Source: Actinomycetota bacterium | Lineage (GTDB): Bacteria; Actinomycetota; Actinomycetes; Nanopelagicales; Nanopelagicaceae | Length of the DNA: 35,406 nt | Direction of reading: 5' to 3' | Assembly: GCA_947372965.1 (NCBI GenBank) | Contig: CANBVR010000012.1 | Span: 1 to 35,406, forward strand | Part shown: one piece after another, positions 1,145 through 8,394 of the stretch | Numbering within the stretch: position 1 is the first letter of the stretch | Layout: each line of letters starts with the position of its first letter | Program-made: the position numbers and the translations under genes | Notes under the pieces: model-generated | Seen by the model: the letters and a program-made list of their open reading frames with translations, nothing else | Databases searched by the model: none | What the model was told of the DNA's origin: nothing

Positions 1145-3301
1145 TTACTTCGCCAAACTGACGCCGGTGATTCTTGGAATTCGGAAGCTCTGCATCTCGC
1201 CGGTGGCGTGATCTCGGGCAATTAAGGTGCCAAGCGAGATTGAGATTGGGTCAATCAATCGGTTTGAAACGCCACCATTTGTATCGGCGTATCCGATTGT
1301 CAGGCTTGCTTGTTCTTCAATATATTGATGCAAGAGATCAAGAGTTTCATTTGCAGTTGTACGTGGAATTTCTCGAGGCTTGTGCGCTGATGCTTTTTCA
1401 CCGGCACGTAACGCGCGAACTGCAGATGCGAGAATCACTTCACTCGGCACACTTACTTCACTTATAACTCTTGGCGGCTTTGGCCTTGATTTTGCACGAC
1501 GAATTGCAGGTGCTGAAACTAAAATTCCTGTTGCATTTTCCGCAGCTGGAAGATATCCGGACTCACGCAATATCGAAATGACTTCTGTGATATCTGTGTC
1601 ACTAATCAAAACTTGTGGCGCCAATTTTCTAAACCTAAGTGGCTCCAACTTTTTATCATGCAAAATCTGTTGGATAATTCCTTCATCTTCACAACGTAAG
1701 TACGAATGAGCGATACCAACTCGAAGTTTTCCGTGGCGCTTTGCAACATCATTAATTAAGTATTCAAGAGGCTGTGGCATCGGAGTTTTTGAGGTCTTCT
1801 TTAAGAAATCCTTAATTTGATCGCCAGTCTGCCCATGATCTAAACCACGGCGAATGGACCCTTCGCTAAAGCGATAAACCGTAGCCCCGCCTCGGCTTTC
1901 GATATCAGCAATAGTGCCGATCATATTTGCAAGTTCAACAGTAAGCGGACCTGGTGCAATGGCACTGTTATCTGCTTGAATCAAAATGTGATCTACTGGC
2001 TTTGGTAACGCAGCTTCAACTCCAAGATCTTCATCGTTGTTGATAAGTGCAATTCCAAAAGTTGAGATTGAACCTTGCCCAGTTATGCCAAGCCATTCGG
2101 CTTCGCGTAAGGTCCATTCAATATATTCAGCGTTAAAGCGTTGGGGCATCTGCCATTTAATAATTGCTTGGAGCGAAGCCAAATTTGGGTCGCTCTCAGA
2201 ATTTTGGATTAAGAGATTTAAAGTGGTTCGCCGCATCGAGGCAATTCCGGCGCGATCTAACTCTGGGCCTAAAGGAGCAATGTTCTTTGCATCTGATTTC
2301 CCAATAAGTCCGGCAACACGTGATGTTTCCAACCAGAGGCCTATGAGTCCGTGCCAACGTTCTTCAAGTGATCTAGTCATCCAAATATCAAAAGCTGCGG
2401 TAGGAAGAATTTGATCATCAGTGTCAATAACGATTAATCCAGCAAGGTAGAGAACTTCGGCAACAAATCCAGTGCAAACTTCATCAATTCCCAAATGCTC
2501 GGAGGTTCGTTTTAGGTCGCGAATTCCAAGACCACCTGACCTTAAAGCGACCGGAGGTTCATCCGACCAATTGTGTGCAAGCTCTTCACACCAACGTAAG
2601 AAATTGGAGATATTGGCAATTGCTGCTCGATCAACTTCCTTTTGCTTGCGGGCTGTGCCAGAAAATTCTGGAACGTTATTTTGTAGTTCTTTGTAGATCT
2701 TCCCGCCACGTAAATGAATGCCGACTTCACGAGGTAATACAACCGTCTGGGAATCCATAACTTCTAAATAATTCTTTTCCAACAACCAAGTTATAGCTTT
2801 GCCAGGATTCTTAACACTCGCGATTTGTCCCCGCGGCGGACCCCAAGTTAGGCGATCTAGAATTAATTTTGAATCTTCTGGAAGATCCTTTAGCGCTTTA
2901 AAATCAATCTTCTTTGGTGATTGCGGCCCAAGGCCAGCTGGTTCATCACCAATTAGGTTTCGCATATTTCCCGGCAAGCGGTATTTCGTTCCATCTTTAT
3001 AGACCAAAGCCCGCGTCCAGAGTTGATCGAGAATCTGCGCTGCAGATTTATCAGTAACAGCAGCCAATTCGGATTTACTAAAAGGCTCTTCAAGTACGCA
3101 GGTAGCTGTCAATATTTCATGTTGGAGCTTATTTAGCCCTTCAAGTGCCCGGATCAAACTTGGCGCAGAGTTGGCGCGAGCGGCAAGAGATGAGAGGTCA
3201 GAGGGAACTGGTGAAATTAAATCCGGTCGCAACTCAAAAAGTTCGACAATCGCAGAATCATCGCGATCGCGTAACTCTTGGGCAAAGGAATTCGCAGACA
3301 T
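1145..3301 (-). CDS. XPB-associated helicase-domain protein (Helicase_C_3 / WYL-like C-terminus)
   Basis: A 718-aa protein matching the large actinobacterial 'helicase-associated' or 'helicase C-terminal domain-containing' family normally encoded just upstream of XPB. Its N-terminal part is helical and winged-helix-like (around residues 60-130, including a region reading ILTATCVLEEPFSKSELAAV). A central region, roughly residues 420-600, contains HILIQADNSAIAPGPL and RVGIAHSYLRCEDEGI and corresponds to the Helicase_C_3 domain. The last 80 residues (SLTIGYADTNGG... RLIDPISIS... IARDHATGEMQSFRIPRITGV) look like a WYL-type beta domain. No Walker A motif is visible, so it is probably not an active helicase itself; a role as an XPB partner in DNA repair is inferred from neighbourhood. 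The ATG at 3301 has no SD; a TAAAGT hexamer lies nine bases upstream. Confidence 0.8.
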   Translation of the reverse strand: MSANSFAQELRDRDDSAIVELFELRPDLISPVPSDLSSLAARANSAPSLIRALEGLNKLQHEILTATCVLEEPFSKSELAAVTDKSAAQILDQLWTRALVYKDGTKYRLPGNMRNLIGDEPAGLGPQSPKKIDFKALKDLPEDSKLILDRLTWGPPRGQIASVKNPGKAITWLLEKNYLEVMDSQTVVLPREVGIHLRGGKIYKELQNNVPEFSGTARKQKEVDRAAIANISNFLRWCEELAHNWSDEPPVALRSGGLGIRDLKRTSEHLGIDEVCTGFVAEVLYLAGLIVIDTDDQILPTAAFDIWMTRSLEERWHGLIGLWLETSRVAGLIGKSDAKNIAPLGPELDRAGIASMRRTTLNLLIQNSESDPNLASLQAIIKWQMPQRFNAEYIEWTLREAEWLGITGQGSISTFGIALINNDEDLGVEAALPKPVDHILIQADNSAIAPGPLTVELANMIGTIADIESRGGATVYRFSEGSIRRGLDHGQTGDQIKDFLKKTSKTPMPQPLEYLINDVAKRHGKLRVGIAHSYLRCEDEGIIQQILHDKKLEPLRFRKLAPQVLISDTDITEVISILRESGYLPAAENATGILVSAPAIRRAKSRPKPPRVISEVSVPSEVILASAVRALRAGEKASAHKPREIPRTTANETLDLLHQYIEEQASLTIGYADTNGGVSNRLIDPISISLGTLIARDHATGEMQSFRIPRITGVSLAK

Positions 3302-3336
3302 AAGGGGTCTACTTTACCGACCTTTTGAACTGGTGC

Positions 3337-4104
3337 TTAACCGCGCTTTCGTGAAGGCGAGAGGAAGGTAGCGCCTGCTGCAATGCGGGCAAGAATTGGT
3401 CCAAATGTTGCCTTCAGGACGCGGGCTCGGCGGAAATCATGTATCGGCCAGTTATCTCTAATTGCGCGGATCTGCAGCAAGGTATCGGGATTAATTGCGG
3501 CGGGGTGACCAACAGTTTCAAGAAGTGGGAAGTCATGGTGGCTATCGGAATAGGCATAACAACTAGATAAATCGATACCGCGTTCTTTTGTTAATTCAGA
3601 AATAGCAAGTGATTTTTCTTTTCCATGGAGCAAACTTCCAATCATCTTCCCGGTGTAAACCCCATCTTTAGCTTCTGCCTTTGTACCGAGCGCACCAGTA
3701 AATCCAAGTCGATTAGCAATAATTTCTGCCATATCTTGCGGCGCAGCTGTTACTAACCAAACCTCTTCACCATTTGCGAGATGTTGATTTGCGATTTCAA
3801 TTGTTCCCTGCCAGATTGCAGGAGAAACATATTGATCATAAACATCACCACCGATTGCGATGATTTCTTTCACATTGTGGCCGCCAATGAATTCACAGGC
3901 AGCGTTTTGATACTTTGCAATCTCTTCTGGATTTTCGGTACCTGTAAGTCGATAACGAAGGTTGGCTAAGACAAACGTTGAGATATCGCGCTTGGAAAAG
4001 AAGCCGCGTTGGTACATTCCACGACCAAGGAAGAAGAGAGTAGAGCCACGGATGATGGTGTTATCGACATCGAAAAAGGCAGCGCATCTGGCTTTTTCGG
4101 TCAT
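3337..4104 (-). CDS. HAD-IB family hydrolase (SerB-like phosphatase)
   Basis: A 255-aa haloacid dehalogenase-superfamily phosphohydrolase of subfamily IB. Motif I is FFDVDNT with the nucleophile D12 and general acid D14; motif II is the LVTAAP segment; the motif III lysine lies in the KEKSLAI region; motif IV is YSDSHHDFPLL. The helical cap between motifs I and II includes RGFFSKRDISTFVLANLRYR. Substrates of this subfamily include phosphoserine and other small phosphomonoesters; the substrate here is unknown. A hydrophobic, basic tail (ILARIAAGATFLSPSRKR) could contact the membrane. It is divergent from the histidine-phosphatase gene with only 45 bases between starts. The ATG lacks an SD and is preceded by TAAGGT-N6, fitting a leaderless transcript. 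Confidence 0.88.
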   Translation of the reverse strand: MTEKARCAAFFDVDNTIIRGSTLFFLGRGMYQRGFFSKRDISTFVLANLRYRLTGTENPEEIAKYQNAACEFIGGHNVKEIIAIGGDVYDQYVSPAIWQGTIEIANQHLANGEEVWLVTAAPQDMAEIIANRLGFTGALGTKAEAKDGVYTGKMIGSLLHGKEKSLAISELTKERGIDLSSCYAYSDSHHDFPLLETVGHPAAINPDTLLQIRAIRDNWPIHDFRRARVLKATFGPILARIAAGATFLSPSRKRG

Positions 4105-4116
4105 GGGGCAACCTTA
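4105..4116 (-). promoter_or_regulatory. Putative leaderless promoter -10 of the HAD-IB gene
   Basis: Read on the minus strand this is TAAGGT followed by six bases (TGCCCC) and then the ATG at 4104. It fits the TANNNT -10 consensus placed so that transcription would begin at the A of the start codon. There is no SD before this gene. No convincing -35 is visible. Confidence 0.5.
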
Positions 4117-4137
4117 GCGCCCAAGGATATGAGTCGT

Positions 4138-4149
4138 TATGATTCACGC
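4138..4149 (+). promoter_or_regulatory. Putative leaderless promoter -10 of the histidine-phosphatase gene
   Basis: TATGAT (five of six matches to TATAAT) followed by exactly six bases (TCACGC) and the ATG at 4150. It supports 4150 as both transcription and translation start. A weak -35-like TTAGCG lies at 4114-4119 with an 18-base spacer. The divergent HAD-IB -10 lies 21 bases away on the other strand. Confidence 0.55.
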
Positions 4150-4770
4150 ATGGCCGCAACAATTCACGTACTTCGACATGGCGAGGTCGAAAACCCAGAG
4201 AAGATTCTCTATGGCCGCCAACCAGGATGGCGTTTATCTACACGGGGCCAAGAGATGGCAAAGGTTGTAGCCAATTGGTCAAAAGATTTAGATCTCGGGG
4301 CGATACACGCTTCACCCCTACAAAGAGCTCAAGAAACTGCAGCGCCTGTAGCAGCGGCACATAACTTGCAGATAACAACTGACGCAAATTTGATTGAAGC
4401 GGCAAATATCTTCGAAGGAAAGAAGTTTGAATTAGGAAGCGGTGTACTTCGCCATCCGGCATCATGGTGGCACCTTCGCAACCCATGGAAACCATCTTGG
4501 GGCGAGCCATATAACGAACAGATTGAACGTATGTTGGCGGCAGTATTTGCTGCGCGCGATGCGGCAAATGGAAAAGATGCATTAGTAGTTTCGCACCAAC
4601 TTCCAATTTGGATTTTACGTTCGACAATAGAAGGCCGTCCGATGTTGCACGATCCACGCAAACGGATCTGCACTTTGGCATCGGTGACAAGTCTTCATTT
4701 AGATGATGAAGGCGCGATCAGTGGCGTTAGCTATCAAGAACCAGCAAAGCATTTGCTCCCCAATAAATGA
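4150..4770 (+). CDS. Histidine phosphatase superfamily protein (phosphoglycerate mutase-like)
   Basis: A 206-aa cytosolic protein with the family's phospho-histidine motif LRHGEVE near the N-terminus (R9, H10, G11) and the second catalytic histidine in VVSHQLP. Members transfer or hydrolyse phosphate on small metabolites; the substrate is not deducible. The reading frame is open for a further 47 codons upstream, but that extension would read antisense through the HAD-IB gene, and RHG proteins normally begin a few residues before RHG. The ATG at 4150 also sits six bases after a TATGAT box, so I chose it. The gene starts the cytochrome c maturation operon, overlapping the TlpA-like gene by four bases (ATGA). 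Membership of this family at the head of this operon is common in actinobacteria. Confidence 0.86.
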   Translation: MAATIHVLRHGEVENPEKILYGRQPGWRLSTRGQEMAKVVANWSKDLDLGAIHASPLQRAQETAAPVAAAHNLQITTDANLIEAANIFEGKKFELGSGVLRHPASWWHLRNPWKPSWGEPYNEQIERMLAAVFAARDAANGKDALVVSHQLPIWILRSTIEGRPMLHDPRKRICTLASVTSLHLDDEGAISGVSYQEPAKHLLPNK

Positions 4771-5315
4771 AGAAACTATTTGCGCTCGCAGTTGTTCTTT
4801 TACTCACCGGTTGTTCTAGCGGGGGTCTTTCCAAAGCAAATGAAAATTCATTTGTCTCCGGCAATGGCTCGGCAATTATTATCAAAGAATCTGATCGAAA
4901 AATTGCGCCAGATATATCTGGAGAGATCCTTTCTGGTGGATCGCTTACTCTTGCAAAAGGAAAAGTAACCGTTCTAAATATCTGGGCATCTTGGTGTTCT
5001 CCATGTCGCGCAGAAGCACCAACACTTGAGGATTTTGCAAAAAAGAATCCAGATATTCAATTTGCTGGAATTTTAACTCGCGATAATTTAACTTCTGCAC
5101 AAAGATTTACCGAGCGATTTAAGATTACTTATCCTTCATTCGTTGATGATGCGATCATTGCAAAATTTCAAGGTTCTCTCTCAGCAAATGCGATCCCTAC
5201 AACTTTGGTGATTGATTCAAAAGGTAGAGTCGCGGCGCGCATAAGTGGGCAAGCAACTGTGGCAATGTTGCAGGATGTATTGAGTAAAGTCTCTGGCGGT
5301 GCTGTAAATGCATAG
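4767..5315 (+). CDS. TlpA/ResA-like thioredoxin-fold lipoprotein
   Basis: A 182-aa exported thiol-disulfide protein that would keep apocytochrome c haem-binding cysteines reduced outside the membrane. A lipoprotein signal peptide ends in the lipobox LLTGC (C16), so the mature protein should be lipid-anchored on the outer face of the membrane. The thioredoxin active site is WCSPC (C77, C80), followed by the cis-proline region NAIPTTLVID. It overlaps the upstream gene by 4 bases and ccdA by 8 bases. CcdA is the expected source of its reducing equivalents, and the ResB-CcsB haem ligation complex follows. Exact orthology to ResA rather than generic TlpA is not settled. Confidence 0.9.
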   Translation: MKKLFALAVVLLLTGCSSGGLSKANENSFVSGNGSAIIIKESDRKIAPDISGEILSGGSLTLAKGKVTVLNIWASWCSPCRAEAPTLEDFAKKNPDIQFAGILTRDNLTSAQRFTERFKITYPSFVDDAIIAKFQGSLSANAIPTTLVIDSKGRVAARISGQATVAMLQDVLSKVSGGAVNA

Positions 5316-6039
5316 CTTCTTCGTCGATCAGATCTTTACCGGCAACTTAATAATCGCCGCCTTTATAAGTTTAATTGCCGGAACTATTTCATTTTTCTCA
5401 CCTTGCGTCTTGCCACTGGTCCCCGGGTATCTCTCCTATGCAGCAGGTATGACCGAAGTTAGAAGTCGTGGCCGCGCTGCACTTGGTTCGCTCTTATTTG
5501 TAATCGGATTCTCGACGTTATTTATTACCTACGGCGTTTTATTCGGTTCCCTTGGTGCAAAAATAAATAGCCACTCAAATGTAATTTCAGTGATTCTTGG
5601 TCTACTCACAATTGCCATGGGCGCGATCTTTCTTTTCAATCAGAAGTTTTACCGTTCCTTCAAGCCACAATGGAAGGTTCGTACTGGGTTAATCGGAGCG
5701 CCAGTTTTGGGTTTCCTCTTTGGGATTGGCTGGACACCTTGTATCGGTCCAACGCTTGGCGCAGTACAAGCTCTCTCATTTGAAACTTCGAGTGCACTTC
5801 GAGGTGCAATCTTAAGTTTTGCCTACTGTTTGGGACTCGGCGCTCCATTCTTATTAGTAGGAATCTTCTTCGATCAATCAAAGCGCCTACGCAAGTTCAT
5901 TGCACGCCACGGAAATCACCTAACGTTCATCGGTGGAATTTTTCTTATTCTTATTGGACTTCTTCAAGTAACTGGGCTTTGGAATGATTTGATGAATAAC
6001 TTGCGAGATTTAATCTCAGGATTTATTCCGGTGGTTTAA
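5308..6039 (+). CDS. ccdA: Cytochrome c biogenesis protein CcdA (thiol-disulfide transporter)
   Basis: A 243-aa polytopic membrane protein with about six hydrophobic segments. It passes electrons from cytoplasmic thioredoxin across the membrane to the TlpA-like lipoprotein. The paired redox cysteines are visible in the two family motifs: FFSPCVLPLVPGYLSY (C33) and GIGWTPCIGPTLGA (C145). Length and topology match the short CcdA form, without the periplasmic domains of DsbD. It overlaps the lipoprotein gene by eight bases and abuts resB directly. Confidence 0.94.
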   Translation: MHSFFVDQIFTGNLIIAAFISLIAGTISFFSPCVLPLVPGYLSYAAGMTEVRSRGRAALGSLLFVIGFSTLFITYGVLFGSLGAKINSHSNVISVILGLLTIAMGAIFLFNQKFYRSFKPQWKVRTGLIGAPVLGFLFGIGWTPCIGPTLGAVQALSFETSSALRGAILSFAYCLGLGAPFLLVGIFFDQSKRLRKFIARHGNHLTFIGGIFLILIGLLQVTGLWNDLMNNLRDLISGFIPVV

Positions 6040-7500
6040 ATGAGCATGAATGAATTAAGGGGACGTTCGCTTTTCCGCTGGGCTTGGCGCCAATTAACAA
6101 GTATGCGCACAGCGCTCATGCTTTTATTGTTACTTGGGATTGCCTCTATTCCTGGGTCACTATTTCCGCAGCGATCACAGAATCCAATGAAAGTCGCGGC
6201 CTACTTCGCAAAAAATCCAACGCTTGCAACTTGGCTTGATCGAATCAAGATTTTTGATGTTTATAGCTCACCTTGGTTTAGTGCGATCTATCTCTTGCTT
6301 TTTATCTCCCTAATAGGTTGTGTCTTGCCGCGGACTATCGAACATGTAAAAGCGTTGGGCGCAAAGCCCCCATTGACACCAAAATTCCTTGATCGAATGG
6401 AATTTCCAAGCACTTTAGAAGTTGATAAGGAACTTGCCCTAGATAATGCCGAGCAATGGTTGCGATCAAAACATTTTAGAGTTCGTCGCGAGGCTGGCTC
6501 AATCTCTGCAGAGAAGGGATACTCCCGGGAATCGGGAAACCTACTCTTTCACCTTTCTTTGATACTTATCCTCGTTGGTGTTGGGATCGGTTCACTTTTT
6601 GGTATGAAAGGTGAAGCAATCGTAAGTGTTGGTGATCGCTTCATAAATACACCTACATCTTATGACAGCCTGGGATTTGGAAAGTTTCAATCGGAGAATT
6701 CACTGACATCCTTCTCGCTGATCGTCACGGATTTCAAAGCAAAATATGATTTGAAGACAAACGCCCCATCTGATTACAAACTCTCTGTTCTAGCAGCAAA
6801 TCCGATTGGTTCAAAAGAAATTGCACGCACAATAAAAGTTAATTCACCACTTACTTATGGAAATACCAAAATTTATTTGCAGGCAAATGGTTATTCTCCG
6901 ATGGTCACAATCCGAGATAAGAGCGGAAAGATTGCTTTCCAAGGTGCGACAGTCTTCCTTCCGCAAGATGGAAATCTAACTTCAACAGGCGCAATCAAAC
7001 TTCCTGATATGAATCCACAAATGGGATTTGTGGCGACATTTATTCCAACTTACGATCGCAATTCAAAGCGCGGTGCATTCTCAACTTATCCTGAAGTTTT
7101 AGATCCTAGACTTCTCTTTTCGGCTTGGGTTGGAAATCTTGGGCTAGATTCTGGTCAGCCACAATCGGTTTACCGACTAAATACCACCAAGATGTCGAGA
7201 ATTGCACTAATGCAATTGCAATTACATGAGACCTACAACTTCGGTGAGGGTTCAATCACATTTGAAGGTTGGAAGCCTTGGGTAAATCTACAAATCGTAA
7301 GTGACCCAGGTAAGTTTTACTCACTGTACGGTGCAATACTTGCGATCCTTGGTCTGCTACTTTCACTCTTTACAAGACAGCGCAGAATTTGGGTAAAGGT
7401 TGGCGAAAAGGTTGAAATAGCTGGCCTTGCAAAGAATGGCACTCCAGGCTTAGAAGAAGAGTTAGCTGCGCTAAAAAAGAGATTAGAAGGGGAGAAGTAA
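6040..7500 (+). CDS. resB: Cytochrome c biogenesis protein ResB
   Basis: A 486-aa membrane protein of the System II (Ccs) cytochrome c maturation pathway, which with CcsB exports haem and attaches it to apocytochrome c. The sequence shows a short N-terminal cytoplasmic part, two early transmembrane segments (TALMLLLLLGIASIPGSLFP and AIYLLLFISLIGCVLP), a third around residue 170 (LLFHLSLILILVGVGIGSLF), a large extracytoplasmic domain, and a final transmembrane segment (YGAILAILGLLLSLFTRQRR). This is the usual ResB layout. The gene starts immediately after the ccdA stop codon and is followed at once by ccsB. Confidence 0.93.
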   Translation: MSMNELRGRSLFRWAWRQLTSMRTALMLLLLLGIASIPGSLFPQRSQNPMKVAAYFAKNPTLATWLDRIKIFDVYSSPWFSAIYLLLFISLIGCVLPRTIEHVKALGAKPPLTPKFLDRMEFPSTLEVDKELALDNAEQWLRSKHFRVRREAGSISAEKGYSRESGNLLFHLSLILILVGVGIGSLFGMKGEAIVSVGDRFINTPTSYDSLGFGKFQSENSLTSFSLIVTDFKAKYDLKTNAPSDYKLSVLAANPIGSKEIARTIKVNSPLTYGNTKIYLQANGYSPMVTIRDKSGKIAFQGATVFLPQDGNLTSTGAIKLPDMNPQMGFVATFIPTYDRNSKRGAFSTYPEVLDPRLLFSAWVGNLGLDSGQPQSVYRLNTTKMSRIALMQLQLHETYNFGEGSITFEGWKPWVNLQIVSDPGKFYSLYGAILAILGLLLSLFTRQRRIWVKVGEKVEIAGLAKNGTPGLEEELAALKKRLEGEK

Positions 7501-8394
7501 TTGTCATCTAGCAATTGGGCTTACTTATCCAATTATGCAATTTACTCAGCAATGGTTCTCTTCACCCTTGCCTTCTTTTCACATGCAGTTGAAGTTGCTT
7601 TCTCTGTGAAAAACGATGAAGCAAAGACAAAATTTGATTTCACTCGAACCGATCGCTTCGGTCGTATCGGCAGCGCGATGATGGTTCTTGCAGTCAACTT
7701 CTTATTCGCCGGCGTTATTTTCCGTGGCATCTCTGCACATCGAGTGCCGTGGGGAAATATGTATGAATTCTCAATAACTGGCGCGCTTGCCTTCTCGGGT
7801 GCATATTTATTTGCCTTGGCTAAGTACAAAATTCGCTGGTTAGGTTTACCAGTTGCAATTGCAGTATTACTTACTCTTGGAACTGCAATCACGATTCTTT
7901 ATCGCCCAAGCGCTCCGCTTGTTCCGGCACTTAAATCAACTTGGCTGGCGATTCACGTATCTGCTGCAATTATTTCTGGTGGTGTTTTCTTATTGGCTAA
8001 TTGCATCGCCGCAACTTATTTAATTCTAGATCGGTATGAAACAAACTCATTGCCACGACCAAATTGGGCAAAGAAGCTTCCATCACTTGAGGTTCTAGAT
8101 CAACTTTCTTATCGCCTGGTCGCATTCGTATTTCCACTGTGGACTTTTGCGGTTATCGCTGGTGCGATCTGGGCCGAATCTGCTTGGGGGCGCTATTGGG
8201 GTTGGGATCCAAAAGAGACCTGGGCCTTTATTACTTGGGTGGCTTATGCCGCTTACTTACATGCTCGCGTAACAATTGGTTGGCGCGGTCGTAAAGCAGC
8301 TTGGTTATGTTTATTCGCAGGTTCGACATTCTTATTTAATTACATCTACGTAAATATCTGGGGTACTGGTCGCCATACCTACAGCGGTTTATAA
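7501..8394 (+). CDS. ccsB: Cytochrome c biogenesis protein CcsB (haem exporter/ligase subunit)
   Basis: A 297-aa membrane protein carrying the tryptophan-rich WWD haem-handling motif (WGRYWGWDPKETWAF) between transmembrane segments, with conserved histidines nearby (AIHVSAA and the C-terminal GRHTYSGL). It forms the haem delivery and ligation complex with ResB. The start is TTG, directly after the resB stop codon, supported by a GGGGAG Shine-Dalgarno inside the resB 3' end. It ends four bases from the convergent small membrane protein gene, with no visible terminator hairpin between them. Confidence 0.93.
   Translation: MSSSNWAYLSNYAIYSAMVLFTLAFFSHAVEVAFSVKNDEAKTKFDFTRTDRFGRIGSAMMVLAVNFLFAGVIFRGISAHRVPWGNMYEFSITGALAFSGAYLFALAKYKIRWLGLPVAIAVLLTLGTAITILYRPSAPLVPALKSTWLAIHVSAAIISGGVFLLANCIAATYLILDRYETNSLPRPNWAKKLPSLEVLDQLSYRLVAFVFPLWTFAVIAGAIWAESAWGRYWGWDPKETWAFITWVAYAAYLHARVTIGWRGRKAAWLCLFAGSTFLFNYIYVNIWGTGRHTYSGL

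Follow-up and report, generated by a model that had tools for sequence, protein, structure and literature searches.

Two divergent genes separated by a gap of only 45 nt raise the question of whether closely set promoters act as an either-or switch or are simply packed together. The window, by which we mean the whole stretch of 35,406 nucleotides that was analyzed, comes from a genome of 1.27 Mb in 73 contigs. It carries a HAD-IB family hydrolase gene (HAD) on the minus strand and, facing away from it on the plus strand, a gene of branch 1 of the histidine phosphatase superfamily (HP). HP is followed by genes for a ResA-like thioredoxin, CcdA, ResB, and CcsB, and its coding sequence overlaps that of the ResA-like protein by 4 nt; an earlier note on this DNA had called this operon a cytochrome c maturation operon, and the five genes together do make up a System II cytochrome c biogenesis set. 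The same note had suggested mutual exclusion between a phosphatase gene and the cytochrome operon; for a selected exclusion between HAD and that operon, we found no support. Our results are instead consistent with a model in which, quite probably, the gap holds two independent leaderless promoters set back to back, whose closeness stems from compactness and was not selected as an either-or switch. The features discussed below are collected in Table 1.

Table 1. Features of the divergent region and its surroundings (positions in the window; counts refer to relatives unless stated otherwise)
Feature	Position	Strand	Detail
Helicase gene	1145-3301	-	Start at 3301
Helicase -10 box TAAAGT	3311-3316	-	TAAAGT-N9-ATG; TANNNT at N9 in 73/74 loci
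HAD-IB family hydrolase gene (TIGR01490)	3337-4104	-	Start codon 4104-4102
Predicted HAD transcription start	4104	-	A of ATG; predicted from N6 spacing
HAD N6 spacer TGCCCC	4105-4110	-	From box to ATG; N6 in 73/78
HAD -10 box TAAGGT	4111-4116	-	Sequence and logo
CGC upstream of HAD box (CGN extended -10)	4117-4119	-	C in 71/78 and G in 74/78 at the first two positions
Inter-box stretch, 21 nt	4117-4137	.	7 to 105 nt in 109 unique loci; conserved -35 hexamer not seen
HP -10 box TATGAT	4138-4143	+	TANNNT at N6 or N7 in 80/80 (best 80 of 95)
HP N6 spacer TCACGC	4144-4149	+	N6 in 62/80, N7 in 18/80
Predicted HP transcription start	4150	+	A of ATG; predicted from N6 spacing
HP gene, histidine phosphatase superfamily branch 1	4150-4770	+	First gene of the operon
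ResA-like thioredoxin, CcdA/DsbD_TM, ResB, and CcsB genes	4767-8394	+	Remaining operon genes

Read on the plus strand, the gap (4105-4149) and its borders run CAT (4102-4104), GGGGCA, ACCTTA (4111-4116), 21 nt, TATGAT (4138-4143), TCACGC, and ATG (4150-4152). The letters thus confirm the arrangement first described for this region, with TAAGGT-N6-ATG on the minus strand, TATGAT-N6-ATG on the plus strand, and 21 nt between the boxes. The further statement that neither gene has a Shine-Dalgarno (SD) sequence also holds among relatives, where SD-like 5-mers sought 5 to 18 nt 5' of the starts were present at 1/78 HAD and 0/80 HP starts. Because TANNNT sits 6 nt before each start codon, transcription is predicted to begin at the A of each ATG, which would place the two start sites 46 nt apart. 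The gap would then house two separate -10-only promoters, presumably of the housekeeping-sigma type, back to back, and two leaderless mRNAs would result, one for the HAD-IB hydrolase and one for the HP-resA-ccdA-resB-ccsB operon. Judged from the sequences, it is very likely that both genes are leaderless and are served by -10-only promoters.

The motif has no meaning on its own, since the string TANNNT-N6-ATG occurs fewer times in the window (9) than expected from shuffled sequence (17.3) and so shows no excess. A scan for the paired pattern found 12 instances, and shuffled sequence gave a larger number. Motif counts were therefore rejected as evidence, because shuffles give as many or more, and weight is carried only by placement 5' of start codons and by conservation. 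Placement was scored in 435 kb, the window plus 20 stretches that together make up about one-third of the genome. TANNNT precedes the 423 called starts there at N6 in 52 cases and at N7 in 21, whereas the other 18 spacers average about 5 cases each. Divergent starts show the strongest peak (N6 at 19/86 and N7 at 9/86), and starts lying 5 nt or less from a co-directional upstream gene stay at background level (3/166 and 5/166, respectively). It is established that Actinobacteria have leaderless genes with TANNNT close to the start, and the N6/N7 peak in this genome is their known signature, as described in the available text of PMC3160421 and PMC3898074.

For conservation, we scanned one species-genome collection for HP relatives and kept the best 80 of 95 loci. 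HAD lies upstream of HP in 78 of these 80, and in the other two (L041 and L044) the contig stops about 100 nt upstream of HP. The relatives include Candidatus Planktophila versatilis (L015), which NCBI places in the family Nanopelagicaceae. When the start nearest the alignment was taken, HAD starts had TANNNT at N6 in 73/78 loci and at N7 in 3/78, and HP starts had it at N6 in 62/80 and at N7 in 18/80. The alignment of relatives that the earlier note had proposed as a check thus shows both boxes kept, at N6 or N7 in 76/78 HAD starts and in all 80 HP starts. In the 18 relatives with an N7 spacer, HP transcription may begin 1 nt before the ATG. Starts inside the operon, which served as controls, had no TANNNT at N6 or N7 (0/55 resA-like and 0/75 ccdA starts). 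Sequence logos of the 78 loci are conserved in the two -10 boxes and in short flanks, namely CGN before the HAD box and a T on either side of the HP box. No letters were conserved where a -35 element would be expected, either in these logos or in the set of 109 unique loci used for spacing. The neighboring helicase gene shows a pattern of its own: a 3-nt leader is predicted for it (window 3299-3316, minus strand), a near-leaderless start of unusually fixed spacing, and under a permissive rule preferring N9 its TANNNT was found at N9 in 101/106 loci.

The conserved distance from box to start also bears on where HP begins. The HP frame contains an in-frame ATG at 4129, which the gene caller picked as the start, and remains open up to a TTG at 4009; the boxes might then not be promoters at all, with transcription coming from farther upstream and giving mRNAs with 5' leaders, or HP might start at 4129 or 4009. 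However, an N6 or N7 box precedes the start nearest the position aligned with 4150 in 80/80 relatives, SD-like sites are absent, and the HP/HAD gap varies in length and is only 33 to 35 nt in several relatives. We regard this alternative as very improbable. The start at 4150, which the earlier note had also chosen, is favored over 4129 and 4009 because the box-to-start distance is near-fixed while the gap is variable and because SD sequences are absent.

Since similarity to HP had determined the ranking of the 80-locus set, we added a sample drawn evenly from the family. HP was found in 60 of 61 genomes, and we examined 52 of the 60 loci; this sample overlaps the 80-locus set and includes the window's own locus among the 43 that have a HAD neighbor. 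With starts chosen permissively, both boxes were present in 43/52 loci, the HP box without a HAD neighbor in 8/52, and neither in 1/52 (L238). Some of the more distant loci (L225 and L239 to L241) gave weaker matches under this rule, with the boxes TAAGAT and TACTCT and GTG starts. Loss of a box with the gene order kept, which had been named at the outset as evidence against the promoters, was not found: when any nearby in-frame start was accepted, both boxes were present in 78/78 loci of the first set and in 43/43 of the family sample.

Outside the family, the picture differs. The flanks fetched for 38 other members of the class (mostly about 3 kb, with about 40 nt in L106 and 1.5 kb in L132) contained no divergently adjacent HAD gene. 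In L109, a HAD-like match lies 2.5 to 2.9 kb upstream and is co-directional, and L122 has a short HAD match 2.9 kb upstream that is cut by the end of the stretch. TANNNT lies 5 to 8 nt 5' of the HP start in 1/38 of these class members (L140). Because no divergent HAD gene was seen in the flanks of the 38 and only one has the box, the promoter pair is best read as a family trait. At L117, L132, and L133, which belong to one other family of the class (f5), GATGCT takes the place of TATGCT at N6 before the HP start; it is possibly a relative of the HP promoter without the canonical T.

The distance between the two boxes is labile. It ranges from 7 to 105 nt among 109 unique loci, is 69 nt or less in 108 of them, and has changed at least 27 times on a quick tree. 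Even so, exactly 26 nt separates the boxes in 53/109 loci, whose interiors are near random (median pairwise identity, 0.29), and this hints at some length constraint. Such a constraint, acting in part of the family and without a regulatory purpose, could arise if the upstream contacts of each promoter need room next to the extended -10 of the other, as 3 nt of CGN, a 6-nt -35 site, and a 17-nt spacer add up to 26. In the 26-nt group, moreover, the spacer from the HAD stop codon to the helicase box has 16 different lengths in 52 scored loci. This spacer, which contains no promoter and is an imperfect control since it ends at a stop codon, also served for comparison on the tree, where 101 loci were scorable for both distances; the inter-box distance needed 25 changes versus 39 for the control, a difference that points toward a constraint but is not significant (P = 0.10). 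In addition, letters at the place where the -35 site should be are not conserved, and 14/109 loci have only 7 to 11 nt between the boxes, too short for such contacts. We therefore consider constraint by upstream contacts unlikely, and shared ancestry may explain the frequency of 26 nt. Selection for this spacing is at most suggestive given the tree comparison, and a helical phasing of the spacings, judged by eye, was dropped as post hoc.

The same variability argues against a selected switch, in which the promoters would be kept close so that a polymerase at one blocks the other and HAD-IB and cytochrome c maturation become alternatives. RNA polymerase covers a promoter from about -55 to +20, so with 108 of 109 unique spacings at 69 nt or less the footprints would overlap in most loci. 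From known footprints, it is likely on physical grounds that only one polymerase binds at the HAD/HP gap at a time, and the 26-nt spacing of 53 loci with near-random interiors can likewise be counted toward a switch. However, a switch would require partners and spacing to be conserved together, and what we find is a spacing that spans 7 to 105 nt and has changed at least 27 times, together with 9/52 loci without a HAD neighbor. The HP box is kept in 8 of these 9, where the divergent neighbor is instead the helicase gene with its TANNNT-N9-ATG promoter, at 17 to 86 nt between boxes. Searches of these eight genomes, which are drafts 82 to 99% complete, found only HAD proteins of 30 to 36% identity in six and none in two; the genome of L238, in which the HP box is absent, encodes a HAD protein of 51% identity elsewhere.

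Comparable closeness is also seen at unrelated gene pairs. Within the third of the genome that was sampled, both boxes stand at N6 or N7 in 10/43 divergent pairs, and none of 27 control spacer pairs that do not overlap the peak occurred in any divergent pair; the spacer pairs 5/6 and 7/8, each of which shares a peak position, occurred in 7 and 3. Paired boxes are concentrated where gaps are short, with 8/16 pairs less than 60 nt apart versus 2/27 wider ones. Because the spacing changes, the HP box outlives its HAD partner, and such pairs are common, a selected switch lacks support, and we think it quite unlikely.

Studies of other bacteria bear on the switch from both sides. In the part of PMC12825309 that was available, strong activation on one side of an Escherichia coli bidirectional promoter can repress the other side, and exclusion under strong activation may occur here as well; against this, five of five tested bidirectional promoters showed no competition at basal strength. 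Those promoters resemble the HAD/HP gap in being too close for two polymerases, on steric grounds. They differ in that they share a -10 element, with start sites most commonly 18 bp apart and also often 10 or 23 bp apart (PMC12825309, available text), while here two separate boxes stand 21 nt apart and the predicted start sites 46 nt apart, so that the gap does not belong to the shared or overlapping -10 type. In Mycobacterium tuberculosis, where closely juxtaposed divergent promoters are called common, the neighbors prpD and Rv1129c are likewise divergent and both leaderless, there by mapped start sites; they differ from an exclusive pair in being reportedly induced together (PMC3898074, in the sections available).

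The HAD/HP pair is better placed among the leaderless TANNNT promoters of Actinobacteria, with which it shares a TANNNT box near the start, the absence of an SD sequence, and an unconserved -35 region (PMC3160421 and PMC3898074, as far as available); the box lies at about N6 (N6 or N7 in 76/78 and 80/80 starts). The CGN before the box, found here on the HAD side, is shared with M. tuberculosis promoters (PMC3898074, same portion). What differs here is that two such promoters, with predicted start sites, share a 45-nt gap in back-to-back orientation, and that small-genome relatives retain both together. A search of open papers found no report of leaderless transcription in Nanopelagicales or in streamlined freshwater actinobacteria, and none of the papers that a looser search listed mentioned Planktophila. 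The best explanation for the closeness of the boxes is that intergenic regions are compact and initiation is leaderless, a combination that would leave room for two promoters whose predicted start sites lie 23 to 56 nt apart.

Other divergent pairs were followed in the best 30 loci each of 57 to 60 matching genomes, with the permissive start rule; from their sequences, we take the genes to be ispH, xseA, nudC, an endonuclease gene, aroA, SRAP, argF, and DUF3039. For ispH/xseA, both boxes were present in 23/30 loci, with 1 nt between them in 16, 14 nt in 6, and 10 nt in 1, and the other 7 had no adjacent xseA. Our genome's own locus (L101, 16336-16363) reads AGTCTA-T-TAGGAT, with the boxes 1 nt apart and both genes apparently leaderless, and the intergenic distance is 25 to 26 nt in the 16 loci with 1-nt spacing (within L162 to L191). 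The nudC-like/endonuclease-like pair (L280 to L309), for which the nudC-side start is less sure from protein alignments, had both boxes in 20/30 loci, 13 of them at 1 nt and the other 7 at 11 to 80 nt; the nudC-side box was missing in 9/30 and the other in 1/30. In its own-genome locus (L101, 3438-3474), the boxes are 11 nt apart. The aroA/SRAP pair, with both boxes in 24/30 loci, no adjacent partner in 4, and no SRAP-side box in 2, is freely variable in spacing, with 12 different values between -2 and 38 nt, unlike the 1-nt pairs. We also considered argF/DUF3039 as a conserved overlapping promoter and rejected it, as the overlap was not evidently kept in 10 relatives judged by eye. At L082 (4604-4627) and L095 (5597-5621), with intergenic distances of 22 and 23 nt, the -10 boxes overlap by TA (ANNNTANNNT), and the predicted start sites are 23 to 24 nt apart.

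These pairs allow a broader proposal, which we put forward tentatively: leaderless back-to-back promoters may be a standing device of genome compaction in Nanopelagicaceae, including a tight form, ANNNTA-N-TANNNT, with boxes 1 nt apart. In the tight form, N6 spacers on both sides would place the predicted start sites 26 nt apart. If this holds, roughly 25 nt of intergenic DNA would act as one leaderless bidirectional promoter, a single short element for both genes, and its 26-nt distance would fall outside the distances of 10, 18, and 23 that are common in E. coli. The 1-nt form, seen at two unrelated gene pairs, is more novel than the HAD/HP pair itself, which looks like a further case of a known kind of leaderless promoter and a matter of compact genome design more than of an either-or switch.

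The HAD/HP gap thus offers a conserved, well-delimited example of a minimal divergent promoter region in which both messages are predicted to be leaderless, and, as far as sequence goes, its promoters strongly back the start codons assigned to both genes. It also indicates that closeness of promoters need not imply regulation, as the boxes persist through changes of both spacing and partner. Because several gene pairs share this paired arrangement, the relatives form a natural series in which to learn when close promoters interfere.
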